IMG/VR virus record: IMGVR_UViG_3300029448_008211 | Coordinates: 1 to 31,192 of that record | DNA: 31,192 nt | Origin: a virus | Strand: one strand, 5' to 3' | In this document: in pieces, positions 2,808 to 27,594 of the stretch | How the letters are laid out: each line of letters begins with the position of its first letter | How positions within the stretch are numbered: the first letter of the stretch is position 1 | Made by a program: the position numbers and the translations under genes | The notes under the pieces: generated by a model | Told to the model about the DNA's origin: nothing | Seen by the model: only the letters and a program-made list of their open reading frames with translations | The model's database searches: none

Positions 2808-3329
2808 TCATCTTAAAAATTCACGGTAATCTAAATTGTATAACAGTGGATTTATTTTATGCACACCTATTAAAAACAAGCAAAAACTTGAAACAGATGA
2901 ACCTCTGCCCACACCCCAAATAACATTATTTGCTCGTAGCGTGTCTACAAAATAAATTAAAAATTGTAAAACTTTGGTAAAGCCTTTTTGTTCAAAAAGT
3001 TTGTATTCTATTAACACTCGGTCTCTTTCTTCTTCAGTGTTGCATTTGTCTAACAAATATTGTTTTACATCTAGTTTTGTATATGATTCAGGCATGTGCC
3101 AATTTGAATAATGTCTCAAATCAAAATCACTCACAGACTCTTTTCGTTGTGTTATTTTTGCTAACGGAGGCAATTCCATGTCTAGTTCTTTCAAAGCCTT
3201 GTCATACAAAACGTTGTCAGTTGGTAATTTTGAAATATCTATATCTGGATTTTGATAGATTAGATCAATTACAGCGTCTTCACTGTAAAAGCAATCTCCG
3301 TAATCATTTCTTTTTATCTTTGCTACCAT
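2808..3329 (-). CDS. DNA polymerase III alpha (DnaE)-like fragment
   Basis: A 173-residue protein whose C-terminal half resembles the start of the C-family polymerase palm. It has a LQFLIYFVDTLRANN helix, then GVGRGSSVSSF at 139-149 (compare G-P-G-R-G-S-A in DnaE), then a leucine-rich stretch and INPLLYNLDYREFLR at the end. In DnaE the next conserved block is the catalytic P-D-F-D-I-D, and the protein stops just before it. No PHP nuclease, catalytic aspartates, finger or beta-binding region is present, so it cannot be a polymerase. Its 5' end overlaps the preceding gene by 26 bases, and AAAGG lies 7 bases before the ATG. It may bind nucleotide, primer or clamp-loader parts, or be a domesticated relic. 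Confidence 0.7.
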   Translation of the reverse strand: MVAKIKRNDYGDCFYSEDAVIDLIYQNPDIDISKLPTDNVLYDKALKELDMELPPLAKITQRKESVSDFDLRHYSNWHMPESYTKLDVKQYLLDKCNTEEERDRVLIEYKLFEQKGFTKVLQFLIYFVDTLRANNVIWGVGRGSSVSSFCLFLIGVHKINPLLYNLDYREFLR

Positions 3330-4796: not shown

Positions 4797-7340
4797 TTAT
4801 TCTTTTAACTTCTTTTTAAACGCTAGATATTTATCTCCTTTACGCTCCACTCTTATTTTAGAAGTGGCTGTAGGAGCATTGGTGAAATTAATAGTGGTTT
4901 TTTCGTTAACAGTGTCATGTGATAGACTAAACTGAGGCTCATAGTCAACTGATCGCAGTAGAGAATCTGCTGACAGATATGTAGGACTTAAAGTGTTATC
5001 TGCTGTAACTTGTTGCCCAAATGACAACACAGTGGCATTTTCTCTCAATTTAATTTCTTCTTCATGAACTAATTCATTTAAAGTAAATGAAGTTGTAGAA
5101 CCATCTGCTGTCAATGTGCCTGTGTCTACTAAATTAATATTTGTTTTGTATCTGTCGATTACAAAGTTTAATTTTTTAAAGTCGATTGCTTTATCTGTGA
5201 TACGTTTTTTAACAAGACCGGATTTTCCAGGTTTACAATATGCTAAAACCATCGCCATTTTATATCCTAAAGGTACACCTGAGCCGTCTTGACTCGTTCT
5301 CATCCATAATGGTAAATGAACGTATTCTCTTTGTCCTAAAGATTTCATTCTTGACCTCATATTAGCCACTGCATTAGGAAACAATTGTTCAAATTGTCCT
5401 GTGTCAGCAGTAAGTTGGTTTGCATATCTTATTTTAGATCCAGCGATGCTAAAACTTAATCCACTATCTGTTGTAACATCATACACATCAAAATCCGCGG
5501 TAATCCTATTTGCGTCAGCCACAGGTCCAATCATAGGTCTTACAATATCACTTCTTAAAGATATACTTGATGCAATTGATGTGCCTGCATTGTTGACTAA
5601 ATTATCTTTCATTTCAACGTAAACAACTTCGTATTTTTCTGTGCCATTTTCTTTTGCAGTTGCAGTTTTAATATCACCAAAGTACAATGACTTTGGAGTG
5701 TGATTTTGTTCCATTTGTTCTTGTAAAACTTTTAATGTCTTGTGTTCTAAACCTGCTAACAATAACATTTCAGGATTTGTTTTGATACCAAAACTATTAT
5801 CTTCTGGTCTAAAAATATTTTCTGCGTTGTTGATGTTAGGGTCTTGAGATATTTGGTAAAATAAATCTCTGTCTGCACTTGGTATAAGTCCTTGTGCTGA
5901 CATATTTCCATATTCTACTCCATATGGTAAACTTACTGTAATGTTAAATTCTTTTGATGTTGCTAATGATTGGTACTGGTCACCAACTGTAACTGTAAAA
6001 GTGTATTTCCTATCAAAACTTAAACTGTTTGTGTCAAAGGTAATGTCATTTGCGTCAATCGTTGTAAATTCTGTTTTGTCTACTGAACCTATAATATTAC
6101 CAGAACGTGATAATGTAAGTCCAGTTGGTAAAGAGCCACCTGTGACAGTGTATTCTAAAACTCTGTTGGTTTCAACTGCGGTGGCTTCAACAGATATCAA
6201 ACTTGGAATACCAGCAATCACTTTTCCTAAATCAGTAGCACTTGTAAATGAAACACCAACATCTATTTCGCCAATGACAGTCATGTTGAATTTTCTGTCT
6301 GCAAATATAGTAACTTCGTTGACTAGTCTTGATGCTCTTACTGTAAAAGTATAATCTACTGATACCGCTGATTGTGTAGGCAATTGTCCTGAAATTTCTC
6401 CACTATTGGCATCAATACTCAATCCTGTTGGCAGAGATCCACTTTGTATCGCATAAGTCAAGTCACCTTGCAGTGAGTCAAAGTCAACTACATCAATTTT
6501 TATTACAACTTGATTGTCGTGTCTAAATGTGCCCAATGCACTAGGAGTTTCGAAGATAGGTTTTCTTGCTCCACTTATGCTCATTAGCAAAGGTACGCCT
6601 TCGAATTCAGTAGCGTCTATTGAAATTCTAGTGTTATCAACTCTAAAGAAGTCAGCGGTGTAAACAAAAATACTGTTTATCTGTGTTGTAACATTGCTAC
6701 CATCGGATACTCTAACACTGAATTCATAATTTTTTGATAATGAAGTTTGTCTTACTGTTGGATCATATGTGATGTCATCGTAAGCGTATGTGTTATCGTA
6801 GCCACCAATGTCTCCAAACTTATCGTTATCTGTTAAAAGCACAGTGCCTGATATTAATCCTGTACTGCTCATTGTTAGTCCAGGAGGTAAAACTCCTTCA
6901 GCAATATCATACACTAAAGTTTGTCCTGCGGCAGTGTCAGTGTCAGTTGCTAGTGTTTGAAAACTAATAAATGATCCGTCTAGCACCCATTTGTTTCCTA
7001 TCCTTGTGCTGTCAGATAAATCTAATTGTCCTTCCGCTGTTGAAAATACTGGTGCATCAGCACCTTGAACTTGCAGGCTAAATGACCGATCAGCAACGTT
7101 AGTACCATCGGAGGCTCTTACAACAAAAGTGTAAAGGGATCTTGTTGCAACCTCCGTTGGCACACCACGCAGAATACCTCCAGAAGTAAGTTCAATTCCT
7201 GTGGGTAAAGTTCCTGCTATTTTGGAATAAGTCAAATCGTCACCGTCAGCATCAGTGGCTGATAGGGTTACAGAATAGTAATCACGCTCGTTAATTACTC
7301 CTAACAAGCCTGCTGTTGTTTGCCAGACGGGTGCGGCCAT
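4797..7340 (-). CDS. Large virion/fibre protein with tandem Ig-like (He_PIG/cadherin-like) domains
   Basis: An 847-residue protein. The first ~480 residues contain at least four repeats of an Ig-like unit. Each has a DGDDLTYS or D-L-T-Y-strand, LPTGI or LPPGL, a short turn, then G-x-I-x-G and YTFVVRASDG; examples are GTLPTGIELTSGGILRGVP near 43-61 and SLPTGLSIDANSGEISGQLP near 304-323. These match putative Ig (He_PIG) domains of surface adhesins. The last ~350 residues have a different composition, with helices and a final beta segment ending in basic residues. This part may anchor the protein. ATG 7340 follows AAGGAG (7351-7356) with 10-base spacing, one of the few classical leaders in the fibre block. 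A role in host-surface binding is inferred. Confidence 0.85.
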   Translation of the reverse strand: MAAPVWQTTAGLLGVINERDYYSVTLSATDADGDDLTYSKIAGTLPTGIELTSGGILRGVPTEVATRSLYTFVVRASDGTNVADRSFSLQVQGADAPVFSTAEGQLDLSDSTRIGNKWVLDGSFISFQTLATDTDTAAGQTLVYDIAEGVLPPGLTMSSTGLISGTVLLTDNDKFGDIGGYDNTYAYDDITYDPTVRQTSLSKNYEFSVRVSDGSNVTTQINSIFVYTADFFRVDNTRISIDATEFEGVPLLMSISGARKPIFETPSALGTFRHDNQVVIKIDVVDFDSLQGDLTYAIQSGSLPTGLSIDANSGEISGQLPTQSAVSVDYTFTVRASRLVNEVTIFADRKFNMTVIGEIDVGVSFTSATDLGKVIAGIPSLISVEATAVETNRVLEYTVTGGSLPTGLTLSRSGNIIGSVDKTEFTTIDANDITFDTNSLSFDRKYTFTVTVGDQYQSLATSKEFNITVSLPYGVEYGNMSAQGLIPSADRDLFYQISQDPNINNAENIFRPEDNSFGIKTNPEMLLLAGLEHKTLKVLQEQMEQNHTPKSLYFGDIKTATAKENGTEKYEVVYVEMKDNLVNNAGTSIASSISLRSDIVRPMIGPVADANRITADFDVYDVTTDSGLSFSIAGSKIRYANQLTADTGQFEQLFPNAVANMRSRMKSLGQREYVHLPLWMRTSQDGSGVPLGYKMAMVLAYCKPGKSGLVKKRITDKAIDFKKLNFVIDRYKTNINLVDTGTLTADGSTTSFTLNELVHEEEIKLRENATVLSFGQQVTADNTLSPTYLSADSLLRSVDYEPQFSLSHDTVNEKTTINFTNAPTATSKIRVERKGDKYLAFKKKLKE

Positions 7341-7385: not shown

Positions 7386-9200
7386 TTAAGATACGTCGGC
7401 TGAGAATGGAGTAGCAGGATTGGTTCCAGATGATACTCGCATTTGGCCTTTAACTGCATATTTGTCAGCGGCAATATCGATAAGCGTAACTGTGTCACCT
7501 ATTAGTCCGCCTTGTGTGCCACTGTTTAGTGTGATTGTGTCAGATTGGGCAACTGTTGGAAAGGCCGAAACTGCTGTGCCATCTTCATCTAGATATTGTA
7601 TCATTCCTGAGAAAGTGTTGTTGGCATCTGGTGCTTGAATTTTGTATGTTGTTGATCCGCCCATTGCAACACTTACTATAAATTCATATACGTTACCCGA
7701 ACCTGTTGCGTCAGGCAGTGTTAAAACAACATTAGCATTTCCACCAACTTCACCAAGTAAAAGTGTTCTACCTGCGTGTTCTGTTTCTGTAACACTATCA
7801 GTCGCTGTAAATGTGTGTATTGCTTTTTTGAAAGATCCAGTCAAAGTTAATTGTGCAGATGTTGTTACTGCTCCTGTACCGTTTGTTTGTAAAACTAAGT
7901 CTTCATTAGTAGTAACTTGAACTATTTTTGCACCTGTGGCCAAAAGCAATTCACTTGCAACAGCAACATCAGTTGCTGAAAGTTCATTTGTTACTGCAAC
8001 ATAGTTTCCGCCAAGTGTAATGTTACCTGAACCATCTGGAGTAATGTTTATACCACCATTTGAATTTGTTGATGTAATTGCGTTGCCGTCTAATCTTAAA
8101 TTATCTATATTGTGTTGTCCAGTTACTGACACTGTGCCAGTGATAGTTTGACCAATAGTGGTCATTGCATTTTGCACATCAATTGTGCCTGAACTGTTAG
8201 CCGCAATTTCTAAAACTGCATTTGAGGCATTAGTTGTAATTTTATTATCTTTTATTGTTACACCGTCAACAATTAATGTACCTGTTATTGTCTGTGTGCC
8301 TGCGGTTGTGATGTCGTCAGTTGTTAGTGTTCCAGTGACATCCACGTTGCCAGTAATGTTAGTGGCCGCATGTAATTCAATTGTGCCAGTGCCACCTGGA
8401 TTTAGTGTAAGATTACCATTTGAAGCAGTTGAAATATCTGTGTCATCAAAACTTAAATTGTCAATCGTGACAGTGCCAGTCATTGTTGCCGCATTGATTG
8501 TAGGTGATGTTAAAGTTTTATTTGTTAAAGTTTGTGTATCTGTTTTAGTAACCACTGTGCCTGTGTCGATCGCATGTGTAACTGTGTTGTTGCTAACAGA
8601 TGTGCTAATTCCGTTTCCGCCTGCAAAGTGTAAAACTTCTGAATCTAAATCAATTGACAACACTGTTGAGTCATCTGCACTGAAATCTAAGTCTTCAGCG
8701 GTGATCTGTGTGTCGACATATGCTTTGATTGATTGCTGTGTTGCAAGTAGAGTTGCACTGTTTGAAGTCATGTCGTCTTCATCCGCTATACCGGTCACAG
8801 TTGCTCCTGTTGCCAATGCTAAACTTGTGGCAGAACTTAACGCTCCACTCACTGAAGCAGTACCGTCTACTACTAATCCATCATTAACATTGATAGCAGT
8901 TGAATCACTTGATGAAACACTGGTACCCTGAACTTGTAATGCACCAATTGTTACGTTTCCTGTGCCATTGGGTTGGATACTGACATTGCCATTGGTTACG
9001 TCAGTTGTAATTTGAAAATTGTTTACGTCTAAGTTTGCGGCAAGTTTAGGTGCTGTATCATGTTCTAAAATTGTGGATGCATTATCGTCGCCACCATACA
9101 ATTCTGAAAAGTTGTCGTTAATTTTGTCAAACGCTGTTCTTAGCGGATCACCTGTTCCGTCGTTTGCTGTTGTACCTATATTGATAGTTTGTCTTGCCAT
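7386..9200 (-). CDS. Tail-fibre-like structural protein, paralogue 1 (604 aa)
   Basis: It begins with the adaptor motif MARQTINIGTTANDGTGDPL and NDNFSELY (about 27-34). It then carries many ~30-residue beta repeats of the form T-x-x-x-N-x-N-L-x-L-x-P-x-G-T-G-x-V/I, rich in Thr, Asn, Ser and Gly, a pattern that usually folds as a trimeric beta-helix or beta-prism shaft. A globular C-terminal domain starts near residue 455 (AGRTLLLGEVGGN). It differs from the tips of the other fibre proteins, so it may be an alternative receptor tip. The repeats have almost no cysteines. A late-like box lies 7 bases before the ATG and there is no Shine-Dalgarno site. Confidence 0.85.
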   Translation of the reverse strand: MARQTINIGTTANDGTGDPLRTAFDKINDNFSELYGGDDNASTILEHDTAPKLAANLDVNNFQITTDVTNGNVSIQPNGTGNVTIGALQVQGTSVSSSDSTAINVNDGLVVDGTASVSGALSSATSLALATGATVTGIADEDDMTSNSATLLATQQSIKAYVDTQITAEDLDFSADDSTVLSIDLDSEVLHFAGGNGISTSVSNNTVTHAIDTGTVVTKTDTQTLTNKTLTSPTINAATMTGTVTIDNLSFDDTDISTASNGNLTLNPGGTGTIELHAATNITGNVDVTGTLTTDDITTAGTQTITGTLIVDGVTIKDNKITTNASNAVLEIAANSSGTIDVQNAMTTIGQTITGTVSVTGQHNIDNLRLDGNAITSTNSNGGINITPDGSGNITLGGNYVAVTNELSATDVAVASELLLATGAKIVQVTTNEDLVLQTNGTGAVTTSAQLTLTGSFKKAIHTFTATDSVTETEHAGRTLLLGEVGGNANVVLTLPDATGSGNVYEFIVSVAMGGSTTYKIQAPDANNTFSGMIQYLDEDGTAVSAFPTVAQSDTITLNSGTQGGLIGDTVTLIDIAADKYAVKGQMRVSSGTNPATPFSADVS

Positions 9201-9243: not shown

Positions 9244-10533
9244 TTATGCATTTAAGGCAATTCTTTGAAACTTAAACACTATACTATCACTGGTAATAGG
9301 CGTACATCTAAATCTTACATTTCCGCTGTTTATGTCAGCACTGTAAGTACCAAGACCTTCTGTCCCACTTGTTACTGAACCAAAAGTTGCAATATAGGCA
9401 TTAGTACCGTCATGTGTAATGTTGGCCTCAACAATTTCAAATCTACCATCTTCAGTGTTTGTTGCAGACACAATATATTTTGCACTTCTTGAACTTGAAG
9501 CACTAAAAGTATCAATATTGTCTGTTGTAGAAGCAGACAAAGTTGTTGTGCCATCTGCTATGGCACTGTGATTTAAAGTTACTCCTGCAGTAGCAAAACT
9601 TAATGTGCCAGATCCATCTGTTTTTAAAAACTGTCCACTGGACCCATCACTTGTTGGAAATGTAAAACCACTTATGGATACTCCTCCTGAACCACTTCCT
9701 GAAAGTACTAAATTTGCGTTTGTGGCATTTGCCGAAATTTCATTGTCAGTTAAAGTTATACCATCTACTGTTGCACTTGTATTTGCAGTTACAGTTGTAA
9801 ACACTCCAGTCGTGGCCGATGAAGCACCAACAGTGGCTCCGTCGATTGCACCACCATTAATATCCACTTTGCTCATTACCACTGATCCTGTGCCAGAAGG
9901 TGTAATGACAATGTCATCATTTGTGAGTAACGCCGTGATTTCATTGTCTTGGATTGTTATTTTTGAATCTATAGTTAATTTAGGAACAATTACTTGACCA
10001 GTTCCACTTGGTGTAATGTTTATATCTTCGTTTGACCTGGTTCCAGTAATGTTGTTATCATTGATTGTTATTGCAGGTAAAACAATTGCACCTGTTCCTG
10101 CTGGAGCAAGTGTTATATCAGCATTAGAAGGAGCAATAATTGTTGATCCCACAACTGAAAGATCACCCAAAGAACTTGCACTCAAACCAGTTAATGCACT
10201 ACCGTCACCTGTAAAACTTGTTGCTGTGATAGTACCATCAATTGCTAAATTTTCATTAATGTTGACCGCTGTAGAATCATCGGATGAAATCGATGTGCCT
10301 TTGAATTTAAGAGCGCCTGCAGTTACTGATCCTGTGCCTGATGCTCTAAGAACTAGGTCATCATTTGTTCTTGTGGCTGTAATTTCATTTCCTCTAACTA
10401 TAATACCGCTTGCCAATAAAGGTGAATTGTATAACTCCGTAAAGTTATCATTCACTTTGACCATTGCGGCTCTTAGTGTATCACCTGTACCGTCGTTTGC
10501 TGTTGTTCCTACTTGTAATATCTGTCTAGCCAT
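9244..10533 (-). CDS. Tail-fibre-like structural protein, paralogue 2 (429 aa, single C-terminal module)
   Basis: It begins MARQILQVGTTANDGTGDTL with NDNFTELY, the shared adaptor. Beta repeats follow (SGTGSV, APAGTGAIV, PSGTGQVIV, PSGTGSVVMSKVD). Residues up to about 330 align by eye, block for block, with the N-terminal ~330 residues of the 1,498-residue neighbour, including the APSNAD, ITINDNNI and DGSSGQ segments. The last ~95 residues form one module: DTFSASSSRSAKYIV, then ITHDGTNAYIATFG, then YSADI and VRFR strands. The neighbour has ten divergent copies of that module. The gene lies four bases after the larger one; the pair is a clear duplication with unequal module expansion. Confidence 0.87.
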   Translation of the reverse strand: MARQILQVGTTANDGTGDTLRAAMVKVNDNFTELYNSPLLASGIIVRGNEITATRTNDDLVLRASGTGSVTAGALKFKGTSISSDDSTAVNINENLAIDGTITATSFTGDGSALTGLSASSLGDLSVVGSTIIAPSNADITLAPAGTGAIVLPAITINDNNITGTRSNEDINITPSGTGQVIVPKLTIDSKITIQDNEITALLTNDDIVITPSGTGSVVMSKVDINGGAIDGATVGASSATTGVFTTVTANTSATVDGITLTDNEISANATNANLVLSGSGSGGVSISGFTFPTSDGSSGQFLKTDGSGTLSFATAGVTLNHSAIADGTTTLSASTTDNIDTFSASSSRSAKYIVSATNTEDGRFEIVEANITHDGTNAYIATFGSVTSGTEGLGTYSADINSGNVRFRCTPITSDSIVFKFQRIALNA

Positions 10534-10536: not shown

Positions 10537-13500
10537 TTATATATTTAAGTTTCTTTTTACTATTTTAATAGTGTGATCTTGAGTTCCTGCAACTTCACCT
10601 CTTAATCTTACATTATCGCCGCTTATATCTGCGGAATATGTCGCCAAGTTTGTTGTTTGTGTCCCAACTTGTCCAAAAACACTTAGATATGCATTGGTAC
10701 CATCATGAGTAACATTGACATCTGCAAATTCAAATTTGTCATCATCTGTTCTATGTATTTGTACCAAATATTTTACTGATCTCTGTTCTGTTTTGTCAAA
10801 ACTGTCAAGTGTTGTTAAACTACTTGAACTTCCTGAGCCACGCAACATATTAATTCTATAAGCATTTGCAGTAAATGAACTTGTTCCGTCTGCCGCTTCT
10901 GCTCTTACTTCTGCTGTGGATCCTGTATTGCCTCCCGTATAGTTTATTAAATTACTACCAGTCGAAGAAACAATCGGATCGCTGTTTACAAAAGTATCAC
11001 TGCCATTTGTTACTGCTTGTATTTCTGATATTTGACTATCAGTGGCTCCTACTTTTTTGGCAACCACAACATAATGAGCACCGTTGTAAGTGCCACTTGC
11101 AAAACTATCAAGAATTGTGTATGATGTTGCCGCTGGTCGCAACATATGAATTCTATATGCATTGACCGTTGTTGAGCCTCCACTTGTTGAAGATGCACTT
11201 ATTGTTATAGTTGATGAACCGTTATGTGCGGCAGTCAAAAATATCTGTCCAGATTCTTTTGTGCTGACCTCAGGACCTTGTGCTACACTGGCATCTGTGC
11301 CATCTGTTACAACTGTAAATTCTGATATACTAGCCGCTCCTTCTGTGGAATTGTTTGCAACCATAACATAATGAGCGCCTGTGTGTTGTGTGTCATCAAA
11401 TGTATCTATTGCTGTGGCTCCACTTGATATGGTTACTGCACCTATAGTGTTTGCGTCTGTGCCTGATGAATCACTTTCATTGTCAGCCAATCTAATTCTA
11501 TAAAATTTAATTCTTATATCTCCACTTAATGGTGTCGCATCAATTGAAACAGTTGACCCGCTGAGAGTTGCTGTAAGAGTCAAAAGTCTGCTGTTTGAAA
11601 AATGTTCATTGGACACAGTTATAAATGCTTCACTGCCGTTGTGTACAACCAGTGCTTCAAGGTTACTGATGTTTCCATTGTCAGTGTCCTCAGCACTGAT
11701 GTAATACTTGGCACCTCTATAACTTGCGTGTGCCCAACTGTCCATAGTTGTAGCGGATGTTGTGGGTGCTTTTATTTTTACTGCATAAGCCTGCACAGTT
11801 GATGATCCACTTGTTGAACTTGCTTTAACACTTACAGTTGTTCCTGAAATTGTCGCAGTAATTGCCAACATGTCATTTTCTTTAGTGCTTACATTTGGAC
11901 CTTGTGACACAAACACATTTGATCCATCTGTTACCACTGCCGCTTCACATATAAAATTTTCATCGGAACCTTTTTGTCCTGTTATAATGTAATGGGCCGC
12001 GTCAACATCATCACTTGAAAAAGTATCAAAGGTTGTTGCCGAACTTGATACAATAGTATTACCTATCACTTTTCTTGAACTGTCGGAATTGGCTTCACTT
12101 GATTCTGAATCACCAAATGCTACAACTCTGTTGACTATGACTTTAGTGCTACCACCTGCTGTGGCCGATGCTCTCAATCTAAAAGAAGTGCCGGAGATAT
12201 CTGCTGTCAAAGTAATTAAACTGTTATTGCCCGAGAAAAACTCGTTGTATGTGGTGATGTAGGCGTTTGTTCCGTCATGAGTCACCAATGCTTCAATGTT
12301 GCCAACTTCGCCTGTGGATTGATTGTTCACTGTGATAAAATATTTTGCTCCTACGTGTGCGCCATGAGAAATTGCATCAAGTGTTGTCACAGCACTGTCA
12401 ATTATATCTGTGTGCATGATGTCATTAATCAAAACAAATTCACCAACGTAACCTGCTGAGTCACCGTCTCCGAGACCCTGCCTATAATAGGCCAATGTGT
12501 TTGATGGTGTAACACTAGATCCATCACTGTCAGTCATTCTTAATCTCACCAATGAAGAACTGTCACTGGCAGTCACAATGTCAGCATCAAAAGTTGCATG
12601 TTGATCTGCTGGATCTGAACGCACTACTTGTGATGACGTAATAAAAGCATCTGCTAAATTATGACAAATACTTAATTTTTTAAATTCAAAACTGTCATGT
12701 TCAATATCTTTAGTCACTGTAAAATACATGGCGGCGTCATAAGTGCCTGCTGTGAAAGTGGCCGCTGTTCTTGTTTCTGCAACACTACCCTGTGTTGTGC
12801 CTGTGGCGTTCATGGCGTCTAAGGCAGTTTCGTTGTTTCCTCCTAGAATTATACCTGCTTCTGTACCTATGTTACCCGAAGTGGCATCTGCTGTATTTTG
12901 TCCAAGTCCTAGTGCATAGTAGGTCATACTGTTACTAATCGTTGATGATCCATCACTGACTCCTGTGCCTCTTAATCTTACATTTGATCCATCAATGTCA
13001 ACATCGTAACTCATCACATCATTGTGGACACCACTTTTAACTATACTTGAACTTGTAATAAAAGCGTTTTGGGTGCTTCCGTCTGTGGTTGTTCCATGCA
13101 TGACTGATAATTTTTCCATGTTAAATTCACTATTGGTTTGATCTCTGTTTATCACGTGATACCAAACACTGTCAAAATCTGTTGTGGCAAAAGTGCTGGC
13201 TGTCTGTGTGCTACTGAAATCTGGATTGGCAGTGCCTCTAAAACTGTTTGTGTCAATTGTTGTTTGTGATATGTTGCTGACTGTGGTTGCTCCTATCACA
13301 CTAACATTGTCTCCACTTGAACTGCTCTCTGAATCTGACAGCAGTACTCTATACATTCTTACTTTAGTGTTTGGCGTCAAGGCCGCTCCACTTAAAACAA
13401 CATTGGATCCAGTGATACCTGCTGTCAAAGTTAACAAACTATTATTTCCTGAGAAATGTGAATTGTGAACGTTTATAAATGCATCTGATCCATTGTGTAT

Positions 13501-15033
13501 CACAAGTGCTTCAAGGTTCTGCACTTCTCCATTATCTGTATTTTCAGCACTTACATAATATTTTGCACCTCTATAACTGGCATGGGCAAAAGTATCCAAA
13601 CTCTCACTGGCACTGTCAACATCTGCATTAACAATTGTTGTAATGTTGCCAGATGTGGTGCTTGAATCATTGTCCCCAAGTCCAATTCTATAAAATCTTA
13701 TTGCATTGTCGGCCGATGTACCTGTTCCAAGTAATTGGGTATTTGATCCACTGACTGAAGCATCAGCAGTAATATGTGTATTTGTACTTGATCTTACTAT
13801 GTTGGATTGTGATAAAAATGCACCTGTGGTACTGCCGTCATTGGTTGTTCCAGTCAACAGTGAATATTTTGCTACTGCAAATTGAGTGTTGGTTACGTCT
13901 TTGGTTACAACATGATACCAAGCACTATCGTATTTTGATGTGGCAAAAGAATCCATAGTAACTTGGCCGGTGGTTACAATCTCATGTCCTCCTAGTGCAG
14001 TATTGGCATTTAATTCTGTGAGTGATCTAAAACTAATATCTTGTGTGGTGTCAGCAAAAGTGGACACTCCAAGTATCAATGGTGACGTTGCAAAACTTAA
14101 TGTTTTACTTCCGTCTGTCTGTAATATTTGTCCTGAACTTCCATCACTGCTGGGCAATGTAAAACCATTTACTAACACAGATCCACTACCACTGCCTGTA
14201 AAAATCAATTTGTCATTAGATTGTGACGCTTTAATCTCATTGTCAGTGATTGTAATTCCTGTTGTGCTTAATGTGGTTGCTTCTATTGTTGTAAAAGTTC
14301 CTGCCGCTGGTGTTGTTGCGCCTAAGGTTGTTCCGTCAACTGTTCCTGCATTGGCATCTACTTTGCTCATAACAACTGAACCTGTGCCTGAAGGTACTAA
14401 ATTTATACTGTCGTTGGATCTTATTGCTGTAATTTCGTTGTCTTTTAATCTAAAACTTGAATCTATTGTGATGTCTGTGACATTGATTGCGCCACTTAAA
14501 CTTGCATCTAAATTTATGTCGTCGTTGCTTCTTGTACCAATTATATTGTTGTCATTGATTGTTATCGCAGGCATAACCAAACTGCCTGTGCCACTAAAAC
14601 TAAAAGTTAAGTCTGCGTTTGAAGGTGCAATCAAAGTTGAACCTGTTGCAGATAAATCACCCACTGTTGATATTGTTGCACCAGTTATTCCTGCCGCACT
14701 ACCAAAATATGTGGTTGCGGTTACAGTTCCGTCAACATTGACATTTTCATTTATGTTTATTCCTGTGGAATCGTCTGATGATAAACTTGTGCCACTGACT
14801 TTGACATCCGCTAATTGTATTGATCCGTTTCCTGCCGCAGTCAAAACAAGATTGGCATTAGATGCCGTGGCAGTAATATTGTTTTCAATAAATGTGATCT
14901 GTGTGCTTTCTATTTCATTGTCAGTGTAAAGTTGGCTAAAATTGTGGTTTATTTTGCTACCCGCAGTCTGGATACTGTCACCAGTTCCGTCGTTTTCGGT
15001 CACACCTACATTTATGATTTGTTGCTGTGTCAT
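10537..15033 (-). CDS. Giant modular fibre/adhesin protein (1,498 aa)
   Basis: The largest gene in the window. The N-terminus carries the adaptor motif in divergent form (INVGVTENDGTGDSI, then NHNFSQLY at 29-36). A beta-repeat shaft homologous to the 429-residue neighbour runs to about residue 350. From about 355 to the end, ten modules of roughly 100-130 residues follow. Each has an A-K-Y/A-H-Y strand, a V-T-H-D-G-T-N-A-Y/F-I core and an L-T-x-T-A-D-I-S-G-S-x-V-R-L strand. They are absent from the shaft, so they probably form a string of beta-sandwich domains. No signal peptide or cysteines of note. The likely role is a long flexible host-binding fibre; length variation through module gain or loss is expected. 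The start at 15033 is supported by a late-like box 7 bases upstream. Confidence 0.88.
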   Translation of the reverse strand: MTQQQIINVGVTENDGTGDSIQTAGSKINHNFSQLYTDNEIESTQITFIENNITATASNANLVLTAAGNGSIQLADVKVSGTSLSSDDSTGININENVNVDGTVTATTYFGSAAGITGATISTVGDLSATGSTLIAPSNADLTFSFSGTGSLVMPAITINDNNIIGTRSNDDINLDASLSGAINVTDITIDSSFRLKDNEITAIRSNDSINLVPSGTGSVVMSKVDANAGTVDGTTLGATTPAAGTFTTIEATTLSTTGITITDNEIKASQSNDKLIFTGSGSGSVLVNGFTLPSSDGSSGQILQTDGSKTLSFATSPLILGVSTFADTTQDISFRSLTELNANTALGGHEIVTTGQVTMDSFATSKYDSAWYHVVTKDVTNTQFAVAKYSLLTGTTNDGSTTGAFLSQSNIVRSSTNTHITADASVSGSNTQLLGTGTSADNAIRFYRIGLGDNDSSTTSGNITTIVNADVDSASESLDTFAHASYRGAKYYVSAENTDNGEVQNLEALVIHNGSDAFINVHNSHFSGNNSLLTLTAGITGSNVVLSGAALTPNTKVRMYRVLLSDSESSSSGDNVSVIGATTVSNISQTTIDTNSFRGTANPDFSSTQTASTFATTDFDSVWYHVINRDQTNSEFNMEKLSVMHGTTTDGSTQNAFITSSSIVKSGVHNDVMSYDVDIDGSNVRLRGTGVSDGSSTISNSMTYYALGLGQNTADATSGNIGTEAGIILGGNNETALDAMNATGTTQGSVAETRTAATFTAGTYDAAMYFTVTKDIEHDSFEFKKLSICHNLADAFITSSQVVRSDPADQHATFDADIVTASDSSSLVRLRMTDSDGSSVTPSNTLAYYRQGLGDGDSAGYVGEFVLINDIMHTDIIDSAVTTLDAISHGAHVGAKYFITVNNQSTGEVGNIEALVTHDGTNAYITTYNEFFSGNNSLITLTADISGTSFRLRASATAGGSTKVIVNRVVAFGDSESSEANSDSSRKVIGNTIVSSSATTFDTFSSDDVDAAHYIITGQKGSDENFICEAAVVTDGSNVFVSQGPNVSTKENDMLAITATISGTTVSVKASSTSGSSTVQAYAVKIKAPTTSATTMDSWAHASYRGAKYYISAEDTDNGNISNLEALVVHNGSEAFITVSNEHFSNSRLLTLTATLSGSTVSIDATPLSGDIRIKFYRIRLADNESDSSGTDANTIGAVTISSGATAIDTFDDTQHTGAHYVMVANNSTEGAASISEFTVVTDGTDASVAQGPEVSTKESGQIFLTAAHNGSSTITISASSTSGGSTTVNAYRIHMLRPAATSYTILDSFASGTYNGAHYVVVAKKVGATDSQISEIQAVTNGSDTFVNSDPIVSSTGSNLINYTGGNTGSTAEVRAEAADGTSSFTANAYRINMLRGSGSSSSLTTLDSFDKTEQRSVKYLVQIHRTDDDKFEFADVNVTHDGTNAYLSVFGQVGTQTTNLATYSADISGDNVRLRGEVAGTQDHTIKIVKRNLNI
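10540..13971 (-). repeat. Array of ten divergent beta-module repeats in the giant fibre gene
   Basis: Ten modules can be counted by their core (T/H-D/N-G-S/T-x-A-F/Y-I/V). By sequence they fall into types, in protein order A B A A B C B C C D. Type A has WYHV and NAFITSSSIV-like ends. Type B has HASYRGAKYY and NLEALV. Type C has GAHYV and VSTKE. Type D is the terminal copy, closest to the single module of the 429-residue protein. Modules 2 and 7 (both type B) are also similar at DNA level around 13570 and 11720. The order suggests repeated block duplication, not simple tandem slippage. Confidence 0.75.
10542..10548 (-). promoter_or_regulatory. Late-like box before the 429-residue fibre gene
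   Basis: TTAAATA lies 8 bases before the ATG at 10533, inside the last codons and stop region of the 1,498-residue gene. There is no Shine-Dalgarno site. The same TTAAATA-N8-ATG arrangement recurs at 25669 and 29425. Confidence 0.45.
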
Positions 15034-15077: not shown

Positions 15078-16205
15078 TTAAACACTTATTTTGACAGTTG
15101 TGCCATCTCTGTACAATCTACCTGCCACTCCAGGGTCGGAGGTTGGAAGGTTAGTAAAATCTATCTGTGAGCCATCTGCCGCCAGGTTTCCTGTGACTGA
15201 AACACCACCTGCTGTTGTTTCAAACTTTTTGGTATTGTCGTGATAAAGTTCAACTGCCCCATCGGCAATACCCTTCACCATGATTTCTGTGCTAGTATCT
15301 TTAGAAAGTATTACATTGTTGTCACTCTGCAGGTAAAGGCTTCCGGTTCCATCTTCTCGTACTATTGAATGACTTCCATTGTGGAATATCCTCAAGTCTC
15401 CGGAAGTACCAAGTTTTATTTCGTCACTATCATCTAGTGTTAAATTTCCTATGACTTTTACTGTACCTGAACTTGCCGCTGTAAGTTCTAGATTGGCGTT
15501 TGATGCTGATGTTGTTATTGTGTTGTCTGTGATAGTAATGCCATCGTCTACATTTAAAGTGCCTGTGACTTTTGCTCCGCCTTGTTGTACCCTGAATGCC
15601 TCGGCAATTCCACCTGCTACTGTAAAGGTTTGGAAAATTAATTCGTTTGCTGTGCCGCTTGTACCGTCAAATAAAATATTTGCACCTGCTGTGCCGGCCG
15701 AACCTACGAAACTTACGCCAGGAACGTTGGCGTTGTCTGTTCTTTGTATTTTTACAAACGGTGTGCCGCCTTTTACAAGCAAACTACTAGACATCTCAAC
15801 TTCACCTGTACCGGATGCAGATATTACTAAATTATCATTTGATCTTGATGCCGTAATTTTGTTGTCTGTTAAATCAATGCCACCGTCAACGTCCAAAGTG
15901 CCTGATACTTTGATACTACCTGTGCCATTTGCTGTAAGGGTGATATCTGCATTAGTATCTAGTGAGCTTATTGCTGTATTGTTTATTGATAATCTATCAA
16001 TTTCAACGATACCTGTTCCATTTGCAAATATTTTCACATTACCGTTGGTATCTGAATTTGTTAAATTTCCATTTGCTGATGTTGTGGCCGCCAAATCTGT
16101 GTATAGTTCTGAGAAATTGTCATTGGCCTTCGTCATGGCTGTACGTAACGTATCACCCGTTGCCGCGTTGCCTACTACACCTGTATCTATTATTAATCTC
16201 GCCAT
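15078..16205 (-). CDS. Tail-fibre-like structural protein, paralogue 4 (375 aa)
   Basis: The start was set at the ATG at 16205 because it gives the shared adaptor MARLIIDTGVVGNAATGDTL and NDNFSELY. The longer frame upstream encodes an unrelated stretch and crosses the divergent promoter. Beta repeats (NGTGIVEI, NGTGSIKV, SGTGEVEM) form the shaft. The C-terminal part has GDLRIFHNGSHSIVREDG, LYLQSDNNVIL and VELYHDNTKKFETT, elements I recall as widespread in marine phage structural proteins. It ends with GRLYRDGTTVKISV. It is the first gene of the fibre block and is transcribed from an element shared with the divergent zinc-ribbon gene. Confidence 0.86.
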   Translation of the reverse strand: MARLIIDTGVVGNAATGDTLRTAMTKANDNFSELYTDLAATTSANGNLTNSDTNGNVKIFANGTGIVEIDRLSINNTAISSLDTNADITLTANGTGSIKVSGTLDVDGGIDLTDNKITASRSNDNLVISASGTGEVEMSSSLLVKGGTPFVKIQRTDNANVPGVSFVGSAGTAGANILFDGTSGTANELIFQTFTVAGGIAEAFRVQQGGAKVTGTLNVDDGITITDNTITTSASNANLELTAASSGTVKVIGNLTLDDSDEIKLGTSGDLRIFHNGSHSIVREDGTGSLYLQSDNNVILSKDTSTEIMVKGIADGAVELYHDNTKKFETTAGGVSVTGNLAADGSQIDFTNLPTSDPGVAGRLYRDGTTVKISV

Positions 16206-16218
16206 AATCTTGTAATCG

Positions 16219-16231
16219 TATTTATTAAATA
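16219..16231. promoter_or_regulatory. Bidirectional late-like promoter element
   Basis: The 13 bases TATTTATTAAATA read TTAAATA on the plus strand (16225-16231, 5 bases before the ATG at 16237) and ATAAATA on the minus strand (16219-16225, 13 bases before the ATG at 16205). Only 31 bases separate the two start codons. A single element could therefore serve both the fibre operon and the zinc-ribbon gene. Confidence 0.55.
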
Positions 16232-16236
16232 CTAAT

Positions 16237-16515
16237 ATGTTCATAGAAACCCTGAAAACAATGCGTTTGTACAAGAGGGAGAGCAAATTAGGGCTTATGC
16301 ACACTTTCCACAGGAAGAATGTCATCTACGTGTTCAAGTGCGACTGTTGTAAAGACACTTTCATGAGGCCTAAATCAAAGGTAGATCCACAAAGGGCATC
16401 TAATGACTACAAACACGTGTGCAACACCTGTGATTCAAAGAAGTTTGCTCAGCAAGTTGGAGTCAAGATGCGGAAAGTATACCAGTTAGACGCCAGCAGT
16501 ACCAAGACCCTATAG
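16237..16515 (+). CDS. Small zinc-ribbon-like protein (only plus-strand gene)
   Basis: A 92-residue basic protein with KCDCCKDTF (Cys at about 35, 37 and 38) and HVCNTCDSKKF (Cys at about 62 and 65), a two-knuckle pattern typical of small zinc ribbons in phages. The C-terminus is basic (VGVKMRKVYQL). The start at 16237 is chosen from the late-like box 5 bases upstream; ATGs at 16261 and 16297 are alternatives. Its last six bases overlap the 3' end of the convergent gene at 16510. The CxxC pairs and absence of any matching minus-strand gene support it as real. Possible roles include binding DNA, RNA or host polymerase; none is shown. Confidence 0.72.
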   Translation: MFIETLKTMRLYKRESKLGLMHTFHRKNVIYVFKCDCCKDTFMRPKSKVDPQRASNDYKHVCNTCDSKKFAQQVGVKMRKVYQLDASSTKTL

Positions 16516-18633: not shown

Positions 18634-19807
18634 ACCCTTGCTTCAGCCCTTTCATTTGTATCTGTTTCCAATCAACGTCATCTAGCGTGTAGGGATAGTC
18701 ACACTCCACCGATGGGCCAGTGATTGTTCTTATGCTTGTGATATTTAAATTATCAGTCATCACTGTGTGAATTTTATGTATAGAAGCGTCAGTTCCAAAT
18801 GTTCTCTGTAAGTCCACCTGTCCTATTTTAATGTAACCTAAACTTAATTTTGAATCCTCCCAATCATATCCATTTGCTTCCAACCATTTCCTGTAGTCAT
18901 TCATCTCTTGTTTCTTGAAATCGTGTTGTTCCTCTGTGATCGTTTGTCCCCACTCCACGTCAAACTCCCCAGAATAATACTTCTGATGATTTATTTCGGA
19001 GCATAAAGCATCTGTCATTTTTGGAGCGTGTTCGTCCCTGAAGACTTCATAAAGTGTTTTACCCACTTGAGACCAGTGCAGGTAAACCCCACCTAGCTCT
19101 CTATCATATCTGTTTTCTTTGAACAGTTGAAGATCCTCTTCATGGAGATCATGTCTGGGAGCGTTAAGGAAAGTTGTAATCTGAGAAGGTCGCATCCACT
19201 CTGGGTCAACTATTTTATCACGATCTGCCATAACCCATCCTTCTATTTCATGACAGATGTTGTTCAATTGCCTGATCGCATACTTTGTTTCGAGATCCGA
19301 CTGCTTGTAAAACTCAGACAGTTGCCATGCAGTGCCTTGAAGTTCCTCAAAGTACCTGTGTAGAAGATTACAACTCTCGTGTTTCAGTCTCTTGCCTGGA
19401 GTTACACTTTCGTCCCCATTGACGGCCTTACCTATAGGCAGGCTACTGCTGTACTGGAAATCATCTACTGTGAATGGGTGTATATTTTCGTAAGGAGGTG
19501 TAAATGTAAAAGAGTTAATTTTAGCAATGTTAGAATTTAATTCTGCCACTAGATAGTTAAGGTCTCTTTTTGAATCTGCAAATCCCAGGAAACAGAAGTT
19601 CTTTTCCAGTATCCTCTCTTGTTTGAGGTTATCCTTGAGTGCCTCCAACCACCTTTGTCCCAACGGAGTGTCGTAGACCTGGAAGTAGTAGGCCCTGTCT
19701 ATGAGGCCTACCCTAACCATATCATGAATAAATTTAGTCTTTTCTGTAGATGGCACTATTGGCTCCGTGTTCCATACATTCCACGCTGTCCACGAAACAT
19801 CTGCCAT
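18611..19807 (-). CDS. Conserved hypothetical protein, 398 aa
   Basis: A large soluble protein that I do not recognise. It has no obvious catalytic signature. Notable patches are GLIDRAYYFQVYDTPLGQRW at about 34-53, NFTF/TFTPPYENIHPFTVDD, an E-H-E-rich helical middle (LLHRYFEELQG), and LGGVYLHWSQVGKTLYEVF near 240. The ATG at 19807 puts its first 74 bases inside the QueD-like gene; GAGAAA lies about 9 bases before it. An internal ATG at 19720, 13 bases after the QueD stop, is a simpler alternative start that would remove 29 residues. The 3' end overlaps the glycosyltransferase by 23 bases. Operon membership suggests a role with those genes, but nothing more. Confidence 0.7.
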   Translation of the reverse strand: MADVSWTAWNVWNTEPIVPSTEKTKFIHDMVRVGLIDRAYYFQVYDTPLGQRWLEALKDNLKQERILEKNFCFLGFADSKRDLNYLVAELNSNIAKINSFTFTPPYENIHPFTVDDFQYSSSLPIGKAVNGDESVTPGKRLKHESCNLLHRYFEELQGTAWQLSEFYKQSDLETKYAIRQLNNICHEIEGWVMADRDKIVDPEWMRPSQITTFLNAPRHDLHEEDLQLFKENRYDRELGGVYLHWSQVGKTLYEVFRDEHAPKMTDALCSEINHQKYYSGEFDVEWGQTITEEQHDFKKQEMNDYRKWLEANGYDWEDSKLSLGYIKIGQVDLQRTFGTDASIHKIHTVMTDNLNITSIRTITGPSVECDYPYTLDDVDWKQIQMKGLKQGYESRSLR

Positions 19808-20183
19808 CAGTTTTTTCTCGGATTAACTTGTCGGCGAAATCAAATGCATGTTTGGCGAACATCTCAGCACCGACACCATCAAATATTCTTATCTCGGCTA
19901 GATCAAGTTGTTCAAACTCTTTGAATTTCTCCATGTGTGGGTCATTCTTGTCTAGTGCAAGTTTGTGGTCGAAGTGATCTTCGAGCCAGGCCTTAATGGG
20001 TTTGAGTCCACCAAAGTCCACAGCCCAGTTCTTGTTGTCTAGGTCCTTGCAACCAAATGTGAATTTGAATGCCAGGCTGTATCCGTGTAGTAGATGGCAG
20101 TGCGAGTGATCTGCGTTGGGTTGTCTGAACACCGCAGATAGTCCTATGTTGTGTCCGTATGTTTTAGTTGAGTAGTAAGTCAT
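19734..20183 (-). CDS. QueD/6-pyruvoyl-tetrahydropterin synthase-like protein (variant zinc site)
   Basis: A 149-residue T-fold protein. Canonical QueD converts dihydroneopterin triphosphate to carboxy-tetrahydropterin, an early step towards queuosine and 7-deazaguanine bases. Family elements are present: HCHLLHGYS with the catalytic-type Cys29, VDFGGLK at 55-61, FDHKLALD, and ECMEHGANSAIY with the pterin-anchoring Glu. Two of the three usual zinc histidines are changed by my alignment: A-A-H becomes A-V-F19, and H-G-H becomes H-G-Y35. Nearby His26, His28 and His30 might substitute. I recall a similar variant group in marine bacteria and phages. QueC, QueE and FolE are not in the window. The start has AGGAGAAA upstream. 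Confidence 0.82.
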   Translation of the reverse strand: MTYYSTKTYGHNIGLSAVFRQPNADHSHCHLLHGYSLAFKFTFGCKDLDNKNWAVDFGGLKPIKAWLEDHFDHKLALDKNDPHMEKFKEFEQLDLAEIRIFDGVGAEMFAKHAFDFADKLIREKTDGRCFVDSVECMEHGANSAIYRKD

Positions 20184-21980: not shown

Positions 21981-21987
21981 TATTTAT
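21981..21987 (-). promoter_or_regulatory. T4-late-like box between the radical SAM and GNGESR genes
   Basis: ATAAATA overlaps the stop codon of the radical SAM gene and is 82 bases upstream of the ATG at 21898. The ~88 bases between the genes (21899-21986) contain no convincing terminator, tRNA or start signal apart from this box. Confidence 0.45.
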
Positions 21988-23024
21988 TAACCGGAGAAAT
22001 CTGGGAAGAATTTGGTGCTTATTTTTCTTTGTTTGGAAATAGTTTTGTTTATGCTCCAGCCTTTTGTTGAGATACCGGCCCTATTGCAGTTGTTACAAAT
22101 TAATTTCATCTTTCCATCAGAATATTCCTGATCGTATATGAGCTGATGTTGTTTGGTAAGATTCGCCCATACACCCTCCACGCCTATTTCAAACACATTA
22201 CCAAAATCCACCTTTTCCTTGGGAAAGTTTCGATCATATGACATGTCACAACACAGTGCGGCTCTTCCACTGACCATTACTTCAAGTCTGTTTAGAATTT
22301 TTCCTGGTGTAAGGTCGCAACCATTTACAAAGCCAGCTTTTGATGGCTTCCAACTACTAGACTTTGCCCACACGTCATCTCCTGTGCCCAACCTGTTGCT
22401 GATCCAATTGGATTGTCCTCTGGCCTTACCTGGAGGAACTAGTTTTTCTTGGTATTCTCTTATCACTTCATGGTGTGGCATTTCCTGTTTCTTGTCCTTG
22501 ATTTGCACATCAAGTAACATAGATATATCAGGGTAATTGTTTTTTAGGAATTCCAAACTGTGTAAGGTTTTCTCTTTGCTGATTCCCATTTGTTCTTGTA
22601 CTGCCTCTGCTGTGAATCCTATCACTGATACAAATATCTTGTTTAAGGTGTGTATGTACTTCTGTAAAATGTCGCACTGTCTTTTCTTGAATGAAATTGC
22701 ATTCGTAGTGAGCCCGACCCTTAGTCCGTGTTTGTCTGCTAGTTCTAACACTGTCTCTAGATGTGGATTTACCAATGGGTCGGAATATCTCCAGGGTAAG
22801 ATTGCGGCATTCTTGTGTTTCACACCGTATTTGTCCAGTTGGGCTACCCAATCTTCAATCAAAGTTGTGATCTGATCACTAGACATTTTTTGTGTTATAA
22901 AGCTCTTGTCTGCACTAAATTCTGTATACGGGCAACAGAAACACTTTGCATTACAAAGGTTAATTGGTTCAAATGCAAGAGCCAACGGGACAGGGGAATA
23001 CCATAATTTTTTAGAAGGATTCAT
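21987..23024 (-). CDS. Radical SAM protein with SPASM-like C-terminus
   Basis: A 345-residue enzyme. Cys24, Cys28 and Cys31 in LCNAKCFCCPY form the CxxxCxxC site for the radical-generating 4Fe-4S cluster, followed by ILPWRYSDPLVNP and VGLTTNAISF, which fit the TIM-barrel strands. The C-terminal third has GCDLTPGK, ALCCDMSYD, FGNVFE and ICNNCNRAG. These cysteines are spaced like the auxiliary clusters of SPASM proteins such as those acting on peptides or sugars. It is not a QueE, whose motif and length differ. The substrate is unknown. An in-window Fe-S carrier (17274) could help load clusters. The start has no clear Shine-Dalgarno site; the preceding gene ends 28 bases upstream. Confidence 0.85.
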   Translation of the reverse strand: MNPSKKLWYSPVPLALAFEPINLCNAKCFCCPYTEFSADKSFITQKMSSDQITTLIEDWVAQLDKYGVKHKNAAILPWRYSDPLVNPHLETVLELADKHGLRVGLTTNAISFKKRQCDILQKYIHTLNKIFVSVIGFTAEAVQEQMGISKEKTLHSLEFLKNNYPDISMLLDVQIKDKKQEMPHHEVIREYQEKLVPPGKARGQSNWISNRLGTGDDVWAKSSSWKPSKAGFVNGCDLTPGKILNRLEVMVSGRAALCCDMSYDRNFPKEKVDFGNVFEIGVEGVWANLTKQHQLIYDQEYSDGKMKLICNNCNRAGISTKGWSINKTISKQRKISTKFFPDFSG

Positions 23025-25668: not shown

Positions 25669-25675
25669 TATTTAA
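25669..25675 (-). promoter_or_regulatory. Late-like box before the small membrane-protein pair
   Basis: TTAAATA, followed by CACACATA and then the ATG at 25660 (8-base spacing). Very close to the site at 29425 (TTAAATACACATATA-ATG). It overlaps the stop end of the cyclase gene. No Shine-Dalgarno site. Confidence 0.55.
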
Positions 25676-27594
25676 CGTTGCAAAGAATACACTTTTACAG
25701 GTTCGGTTTTACCCTTTACCATTATTTCGTCTATGTACTCGAATGTAAATTTGTGTTCAATACCTTGTTTGGTATTTTCTGAAACAATCAGTGTCCTGCC
25801 CAGTGTTTTACTTGCACTCTCTAGACGTGCGGCAAGGTTAACAGGATCTCCTATCACAGAGTAATCAAATCTTTGATCTGATCCCATGTTACCAACAAGG
25901 GCCTCACCTGTGTTGATTCCTATCCCGATGTTGATGGTTGGTAAATTTTCTGCTTTAAGTTGTGTATTCAACATAGCAAGTTCAGACTGCATCTGTGCCG
26001 CGGTCAACACCGCCAACATCTGGTGATCCTTTGTGTCTAATGGTGCGTTCCAGAATGCCATTATGCAGTCACCCATGAACTTGTCCACTGTGCCACCATT
26101 AGCAATTATCACATTGGTCATGCGTGTCAAGAATCTGTTAATAAGTTTTGTAAGTCCAGCAGGATTGCTCTTGTACTTCTCCGATATGGGAGTGAAGCCA
26201 CGTATGTCACAGAACATGAAGGTCATGTTCCTTGTCTCGCCACCCAGTTTCAGCAATGTTGGATCCTTCTGTAACTTCTTGACCATTCTAGGATCAAGAT
26301 AGTGTTCAAACTGTTTCTTTATCTGTTGTCTCAGTCTGCTCTGTGTCGCGAAGTTGTTGTACACAGAATGAGACCAAATCAAAAACACGGACAGCATTGT
26401 CCAAGAAGGATCTACAAGAAATCCTTTGTTTGCGTATGCCATGAATGCCCCGTAGGCCACACCACCCTCTATGAAAAATAAGAGAGGCACTGCCAACAAC
26501 ACACTGGTTCTTGGCAACACTAGTATCAACAGCAACAGCAAAAATGCCATAAACACAATCTCGTAAGTGTCTGCCTGTGGCGTCCTGTACAGGTAGTCAC
26601 CAGTCATTGTGGTGTCCAGTGCCTGTGCTGTTATCATCTGGTCTGTGGTTAGTCCGTGTGGTGTGTACTTTAACACACTAAGGCCTGCGGCATCCATGCC
26701 GACCACGACAATCCTGCCCTTGATCTTCTCATCGTGTTCTCTGCTGAACACCTGCTCAACAGACAGTTGTGTGTATTGTGATGGGTCTGCGTAGTTGATG
26801 TACATCTCGGCATTGTGATTGACTGGTATGCCTGCTTTTTTGCTAACCAACACTTCGTTAATGCCATACTCCTTGGCCACCACTTTGATCCTGTTACTTC
26901 TGTTGACTAATCGTATGTTCTCCAACAACATGCTTGGATATATCTTATCGCTAACACGTATTAACACAGGCATCTTCCTAACCACTGCGTCTGGTTCCGG
27001 AGAGGTAACGTTCACACCTATGCCTTTGGCACCAACGGTCAATTGTGTCAGTGGTGGAACTATGCCATTGTACTCGTATAACCATGGCAACACGTTGCCT
27101 TTCTGTATAATTTGTGTTGTTGTTGGTATGATCTCATCTTGATCACTTTTCACACTCATCATTAGAACAACATTCTTGCTTTCATTGATTGCGTAGGCAA
27201 AGACTCTGTCGGTATCTGTAAGGAACGCTCCTAATTGTTCTCTTACTTCCTCGGTCATTGGAAAACTCTTTAGGTATTCCTTGCCTCCCATTCTGTCCGC
27301 TTCAGCAAACAACACATTATAGTTCACAAGCACCGCACCTGAGTCGGTTAGTCCTGCGTGGAACAAGGCCAGTATGTGCCTTGGCCATGGCCACTGTCCA
27401 TATCTCTTAAGGTCTGATTCCGTAATATTCACTACCACCACTCGATCACTGATATCAGCACGAGGTTGCACTTGCTGGAAATAGTCCCAAGTCTTGTATC
27501 TCAAAATTTTGACAGTATCGCTGTTGTTTACCCTAATACCTGTCAGCACAATAGCAAACACGATAACCATCCATATGCTTGTAAATATCTTCAT
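25672..27594 (-). CDS. CHASE2-domain class III adenylate/guanylate cyclase
   Basis: A 640-residue membrane cyclase. Plan: N-terminal membrane helix (5-20), a periplasmic CHASE2 sensor (about 30-340, with WPWPRHILA near 68-76 and a VVVVNITESD strand), two or three membrane helices (346-410), then a cytoplasmic class III catalytic domain (about 450-640). Metal ligands Asp463 (FCDIRGFT) and Asp509 (DKFMGDCIMAF) are intact, as are the purine-site Lys505 and the transition-state residues Asn586 and Arg590 (GDPVNLAARLE). It should therefore make cAMP (or cGMP; the purine pocket alone does not settle this). It starts on the stop of the small membrane gene (TAATG) in the export locus. Cyclases of this type are unusual in phages as far as I know. 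Confidence 0.9.
   Translation of the reverse strand: MKIFTSIWMVIVFAIVLTGIRVNNSDTVKILRYKTWDYFQQVQPRADISDRVVVVNITESDLKRYGQWPWPRHILALFHAGLTDSGAVLVNYNVLFAEADRMGGKEYLKSFPMTEEVREQLGAFLTDTDRVFAYAINESKNVVLMMSVKSDQDEIIPTTTQIIQKGNVLPWLYEYNGIVPPLTQLTVGAKGIGVNVTSPEPDAVVRKMPVLIRVSDKIYPSMLLENIRLVNRSNRIKVVAKEYGINEVLVSKKAGIPVNHNAEMYINYADPSQYTQLSVEQVFSREHDEKIKGRIVVVGMDAAGLSVLKYTPHGLTTDQMITAQALDTTMTGDYLYRTPQADTYEIVFMAFLLLLLILVLPRTSVLLAVPLLFFIEGGVAYGAFMAYANKGFLVDPSWTMLSVFLIWSHSVYNNFATQSRLRQQIKKQFEHYLDPRMVKKLQKDPTLLKLGGETRNMTFMFCDIRGFTPISEKYKSNPAGLTKLINRFLTRMTNVIIANGGTVDKFMGDCIMAFWNAPLDTKDHQMLAVLTAAQMQSELAMLNTQLKAENLPTINIGIGINTGEALVGNMGSDQRFDYSVIGDPVNLAARLESASKTLGRTLIVSENTKQGIEHKFTFEYIDEIMVKGKTEPVKVYSLQR

Follow-up and report, generated by a model that had tools for sequence, protein, structure and literature searches.

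How does a phage gene come to encode ten copies of one protein module, in an order that is not a simple repeat, beside a paralogue that encodes a single copy? The question is raised by a stretch of DNA of 31,192 nucleotides, here called the window, which derives from a virus fragment of 31.7 kb. It contains adjacent open reading frames for a giant fibre-like protein of 1498 aa and a neighbour of 429 aa, with the limits given in a first-pass annotation made from the sequence alone (Table 1). That annotation regarded the two proteins as paralogues, and their N-termini are indeed 55% identical across about 335 residues. It further proposed that the giant had arisen by block duplication of one module taken from the neighbour, as a device for evolving fibre length or receptor range.

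Both genes belong to a run of four paralogues with a gp9/gp10-type N-terminus, encoding proteins of 415, 1498, 429, and 604 aa. This gene order recurs in relatives, and the 429-aa-type paralogue comes after the giant in those relatives that show the region. The 429-aa neighbour carries the motif NDGTGD..K.N.NF.ELY, which is also present in gp10 and gp9 of phage T4, and it scores 24.6 bits against PF07880, the gp9/gp10-type N-terminal domain, for which the cut-off is 25. The giant of the window gives no direct match to PF07880, and the giants of its relatives reach the cut-off in some records. Because the giant sits among paralogues with this type of N-terminus, a role in the baseplate wedge or as a fibre connector is the natural reading, and we infer that it lies in the tail of the virion and has a role in reaching the cell surface. 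Whole-protein tblastn with the giant gave no match in isolated phages at 1e-5, and a search of solved structures by sequence gave nothing useful. Among the relatives of the source record is a contig of 172 kb (L020) with a DNA polymerase closest to those of jumbo myoviruses, for example Sinorhizobium phage Phosso and Agrobacterium phage Atu_ph07. The fibre cluster of the window adjoins a gene for an 847-aa protein with putative Ig domains (He_PIG, four stretches; 4797–7340, minus strand), and proteins of similar size and similar start occupy its place in several relatives.

Table 1. Coordinates in the window of the giant gene, its parts, and its paralogues
Feature	Coordinates	Strand	First residue (aa)	Evidence and remarks
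Giant fibre-like protein	10537..15033	−		1498 aa: N-terminal region and 10 modules, ABAABCBCCD; ORF, module typing, 74 complete homologues
Giant, N-terminal region (aa 1–318)	14080..15033	−	1	Related to N-termini of the gp9/gp10 type and of the neighbouring proteins
Module 1, type A, outer triplet	13648..14079	−	319	Alignment, HMM typing, tree
Module 2, type B, outer triplet	13303..13647	−	463	Alignment, HMM typing, tree
Module 3, type A, middle triplet	12874..13302	−	578	Alignment, HMM typing, tree; absent from 7-module relatives L017/L020
Module 4, type A, core triplet	12451..12873	−	721	Alignment, HMM typing, tree
Module 5, type B, core triplet	12076..12450	−	862	Alignment, HMM typing, tree
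Module 6, type C, core triplet	11758..12075	−	987	Alignment, HMM typing, tree
Module 7, type B, middle triplet	11449..11757	−	1093	Alignment, HMM typing; model pLDDT 93, gp9 C-terminal fold (predicted)
Module 8, type C, middle triplet	11122..11448	−	1196	Alignment, HMM typing
Module 9, type C, outer triplet	10819..11121	−	1305	Alignment, HMM typing
Module 10, type D, terminal	10540..10818	−	1406	Alignment, HMM typing; near the single modules of the neighbour and of isolates
429-aa paralogue	9244..10533	−		One terminal module, aa 320–429 (window 9247–9576)
604-aa paralogue	7386..9200	−		Same N-terminus type as giant; no module match
415-aa paralogue	15078..16325	−		Same N-terminus type as giant; no module match

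The rest of the window holds genes of other kinds, all on the minus strand. An outer membrane efflux protein (PF02321), a weakly ABC-transporter-membrane-like protein, and a HlyD family protein (PF13437) are encoded at 25672–31171, where a CHASE2 adenylate/guanylate cyclase adjoins the PF02321/HlyD set; this is probably a phage-encoded type I secretion set. The same order is found in the 172-kb relative (L030:17366 to L031:7074), where a 1471-aa protein that has a FecR-like domain is encoded upstream of it. This relative (L028-L036) gave no match to the T4-type major capsid protein PF07068, in a first search run without a positive control, nor to the sheath protein PF04984; incompleteness of the record or strong divergence of its capsid and sheath proteins may be the reason. 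The window also encodes a GroES-like co-chaperonin (PF00166; 1166–1612), a 173-aa protein matching the short DNA polymerase family phrog_11127 and not a full polymerase (2808–3329), a QueD-like enzyme (19734–20183), and a radical SAM protein whose similarity to SPASM is marginal (21987–23024).

The ten modules of the giant share 17–56% pairwise identity. Most pairs align far above shuffled sequence (Z about 40–48 for B2/B7, about 27–32 for D10 and the single module of the neighbour), a few A/C pairs lie near the shuffled background, and the HMM scores of the modules are 81–126 bits, so that the ten copies and the neighbour's one are homologous, as had been claimed. HMM typing confirmed the order A B A A B C B C C D with a margin of at least 62 bits, and each of the four types forms one clade in the module trees, including one with 209 modules from divergent members. 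The resemblance noticed earlier between the last module and the copy next door also holds, type D being the closest to the neighbour's module. An artefact of collapse or expansion during assembly, which could have produced a spurious array, is excluded, since the copies are highly diverged, Tandem Repeats Finder detected no DNA array in the giant gene, a second contig (L007) has a ten-module gene that is 100% identical, and the assemblies of three different metagenomes contain identical ten-module genes (L008-L010). Judged from their sequences, the module copies are ancient.

The first-pass annotation had also suggested predicting the structure of one module. Module 7, modelled with AlphaFold2 from a 110-row alignment, has a mean pLDDT of 93.4, and its model best matches the C-terminal domain of T4 gp9 (1qex 184-288; Z 12.1, rmsd 2.1 Å, 98 residues; Foldseek E 2.4e-4 against gp9). 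The next structural matches are a chain of about the size of gp9 in a Klebsiella phage baseplate entry, and then the C-terminal parts of tailspikes. The module is thus predicted to have the gp9 C-terminal beta-sandwich fold. In T4 the gp9 homotrimer connects the baseplate wedge to the long tail fibre, which it carries, and binds gp7. Each baseplate has six gp9 trimers, and it is to the C-terminal domain of gp9 that the long tail fibre is joined, in a coaxial arrangement (PMC3004832). The likeness to gp9 lies in the type of N-terminal motif, which is seen in the neighbour, and in the predicted fold of the C-terminal domain. However, T4 gp9 has exactly one such domain per chain, as does the 429-aa neighbour, whereas the giant has ten, and it is classed for this reason as a gp9-like derivative rather than as gp9. 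In the model of the 429-aa neighbour the N-terminal region has a pLDDT below 50, with low confidence throughout outside the module, so that trimerisation at the base rests on homology.

Copy number varies among relatives, from 4 to 16 modules. The first 21 relatives sampled had complete giants of 7, 10, or 13 modules, and in a wider sample of 57 complete giants only 4, 7, 10, 13, or 16 were found, all 57 having A, B, and C in equal numbers and a single D at the end. The final sample comprises 74 distinct complete giants, identical sequences having been removed, with modules typed by A, B, C, and D profiles. All 74 obey one composition rule: A, B, and C are present in equal numbers (nA=nB=nC, with n from 1 to 5) and are followed by one terminal D, the totals being 4, 7, 10, 13, or 16 and no other number. 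The terminal module of two ABCD proteins scores marginally nearer to the neighbour's type than to D. No gap over 60 aa conceals a further module, none between the modules being long enough to hold a missed copy, the 28 giants truncated at an end are compatible with the rule, and searches started from the n=5 and n=1 proteins yielded few new loci. T4 gp9 is thus set apart from the giants, being a homotrimer with one C-terminal domain per chain, whereas they have 3n+1 in a typed, nested order with a long repeat region before.

The order of the modules is as constrained as their numbers. Eight orders occur among the 74 complete giants: ABCD (22) for n=1; ABABCCD (12) and AABCBCD (3) for n=2; ABAABCBCCD (26), AABABCCBCD (1), and AAABCBCBCD (1) for n=3; ABAAABCBCBCCD (8) for n=4; and ABAABABABCCCBCCD (1) for n=5. 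Leaving D aside, each of the eight is reduced to nothing by repeated deletion of 'ABC', which makes them properly nested words. The giant of the window reads, with brackets, A1 B2 (A3 (A4 B5 C6) B7 C8) C9 D10. Such words are only 12 of the 1680 equal-count orders possible at n=3 (nine modules), and 55 of the 34650 for twelve modules. The simple tandem (ABC)n with n>1 was found in none of the 74. Linker lengths are class-specific (32–41 aa before A, 10–20 between A and B, 11–18 between B and C, −3 to 7 after C); they fit a model in which each triplet forms a bead, but are not counted as proof of nesting, because additive type-specific extensions could explain them. No description of this rule of composition and nesting was found in the literature searched.

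The nested triplet is also the unit in which the array changes. Modules form position-specific clades across divergent relatives, and the seven modules of relatives L017/L020 match modules 1, 2, 4, 5, 6, 9, and 10 of the window. What these relatives lack is exactly A3, B7, and C8, the nested middle triplet, whose members are not all adjacent. Since they fall within the ten-module group as sisters of the window in a tree of the core triplet and D, loss of a triplet is indicated; the 13-module relatives carry one further nested triplet. A recent change is seen in L103 when compared with its close relative L108, with duplicates at 91% (A1/A2), 95% (B6/B8), and 92% (C7/C9) DNA identity. The core A3-B4-C5 of L103, which lies between the duplicated modules, is itself single, and the copies of L108 match a mixture of the inner and outer copies of L103, a pattern that would fit more than one direction and path of change. 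On the core and D tree, some forks of which are weakly supported, n changed at least 11 times, and every change lands on n(A+B+C)+D. Non-adjacent partners of a triplet are thus gained and lost together, and because the changes come as an A and a B-C pair at separate places, nA=nB=nC always holds. The part of the first-pass proposal that invoked duplication stands, as L103 makes clear, but the unit is a nested triplet and not one module or a contiguous block. The array thus has a more specific cause than the copying of a block out of the neighbour.

Could these regularities come from the mechanics of duplication, without any structural rule? Tandem duplication and recombination, with a three-module block as the mechanical unit, would account for the duplicates of L103 at 91–95% DNA identity, and the core and outer modules do differ in history as cassette exchange would make them. 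Duplication of such a block gives (ABC)n, however, which is the order never seen for n>1. When blocks of one to three modules were duplicated or deleted at random in simulation, equal counts arose in 17% of arrays of 9 modules and 6% of those of 12, and the observed 12-module order in none of 20,000 runs. With every recorded change also landing on the same composition, a purely mechanical origin is very improbable.

Further evidence on the pairing comes from the divergence patterns of 29 ten-module sequences after removal of their common trend. The residual correlation is 0.64 (r) for triplet partners versus −0.09 for non-partners, and the correlated partners include the non-adjacent pairs A1-C9, A3-B7, and A3-C8. 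The nested pairing ranks first of 36 in the n=3 set and first of 4 in the n=2 set, but second of 576 in the n=4 set. No pairing spans less of the chain in total than the nested one does, 7 others of the 36 being equal to it, so that part of the signal could reflect linkage or exchange of inner cassettes between phages; for nested pairing, co-evolution appears as supporting rather than decisive evidence.

The best explanation, and probably the correct one, is that A, B, and C form pseudo-trimeric beads within one chain, that D forms a trimer between chains, and that n is the number of beads. The giant would be a gp9-like tail connector or fibre in which a three-fold cap has been turned into a chain of beads. 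Three chains of T4 gp9 meet in a trimer to which each contributes its one C-terminal domain, and homology suggests the same for the single-module neighbour. The A, B, and C that make up one nested triplet of the giant would instead pack together within their own chain as a pseudo-trimer, or bead. The chain would run outward via the outer beads, build the core bead from the contiguous A-B-C, and then return, completing the outer beads and ending in D at the base, where the D modules of three chains would join in a gp9-like trimer. We infer this packing, chain topology, and basal trimer. Beads, from one to five, would be gained or lost as whole triplets, since adding an A or a B-C pair by itself would produce an incomplete bead, and the nested order would follow from the addition of a whole triplet within another. 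The full recursive architecture, with one polypeptide making a pseudo-trimeric bead fibre of variable length by placing triplets inside triplets, and with length quantised from n=1 to n=5, has slightly better than an even chance of being right.

The same module family occurs in other phage proteins. Fibre-like proteins of S-SM2, S-SRM01, C48C1, DSL-LC02, and Pseudomonas phage Cygsa01 carry a homologous module at the C-terminus, but as one copy and behind other N-terminal architectures. Iterated profile searches found exactly three tandem modules in gp7-like baseplate wedge initiators of five cyanophages, Bellamy, S-B05, S-SCSM1, B23, and P-TIM68 (loci L044, L045, L174, L175, and L176). These resemble the giant in having several tandem copies per chain, but they hold one contiguous triplet in a protein of about 2,850–4,300 aa, with no terminal D and no nesting. 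T4 gp7 is a monomer (PMC3004832); if the gp7-like proteins are monomeric too, three copies per chain are what an intramolecular three-fold head would need. The giants that lie beside gp9 in P-SSM4 and S-8S29 have no convincing module.

The gp7-like proteins bear on two other ways of building a three-fold fibre. Three parallel chains could trimerise through like modules, giving a straight rod of 3n+1 beads with a repeating A-B-C unit. Homotrimers are the rule for T4 gp9, gp10, and gp12 (PMC3004832), other chains would have to supply the partners of the single-module paralogue, and bead-chain fibres of separate trimers exist, as in the neck fibre of Anabaena phage A-1(L) (PMC10966104). That fibre is likewise a chain of trimeric beads, but its beads are about 14 separate trimers of gp81, the product of another gene, whereas those of the giant would be domains of one chain (PMC10966104). 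The homotypic rod is nevertheless unlikely: it predicts ABCABCABC, present in 0 of 74 giants, and leaves unexplained the nesting, the gain and loss of non-adjacent partners, and the three copies in gp7-like proteins, given their monomeric T4 counterpart. Beads could also be domain-swapped, with A, B, and C each supplied by a different chain. This would equally need nA=nB=nC, keeping the 1:1:1 ratio, and is compatible with a homotrimeric base, but it offers no obvious reason for nesting within one chain, and three modules in a single gp7-like chain favour the intramolecular form; we regard it as distinctly unlikely.

The neighbour, proposed earlier as the source of the modules, does not fill that role, because across all relatives the module of this paralogue makes up a separate clade; the neighbour is better described, on the module tree, as a sister of the giant. 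The neighbour's clade lies near D and the single C-terminal modules of isolates, and the outgroup modules join the tree among these D and single types, with only moderate support for the join; A, B, and C therefore look derived, and the terminal type ancestral. In one relative a 769-aa upstream paralogue (L024 954-3260) has its own single terminal module, so that this module is also found on another gene of the cluster. Nor is the array a device of fast turnover, since divergent relatives share the same old types at corresponding positions; one recent change is seen, that between L103 and L108. If modules were alternative binding domains kept for breadth of receptor range, their diversity would be expected, as would the greater divergence of some outer modules than of the core (mean distance 0.51 for C9 vs 0.27 for A4), and the fold does recur in the C-terminal parts of several tailspikes. 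As an added function this is compatible with intramolecular beads, but as the explanation of the array it is extremely unlikely, because it predicts neither equal type numbers nor nesting, and the types are conserved position by position. Fibre length, that is bead number, is plausible as what varies.

An array that grew in a tail-associated protein is known elsewhere, in the tandem BACON-domain tail proteins of crAssphage, which expanded by sequential duplications (PMC6949934). The domain is probably another one, and the abstract of that report mentions neither a 1:1:1 composition nor nesting (PMC6949934); no BACON model was among the Pfam matches of the giant or in its fold-match list. The copy number of domain arrays usually varies with no stoichiometric rule in evidence. 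What is new here is the rule, the fold of the domain being already known. Exact composition and nesting across 74 divergent proteins point to a structural constraint that can be read from sequence alone, and this constraint would concern the conversion of a homotrimeric cap into a single-chain pseudo-trimer and the lengthening of a fibre in complete units. The rule would explain the odd order that first drew attention to the locus, and for uncultured marine phages it yields a structural prediction that can be tested directly.
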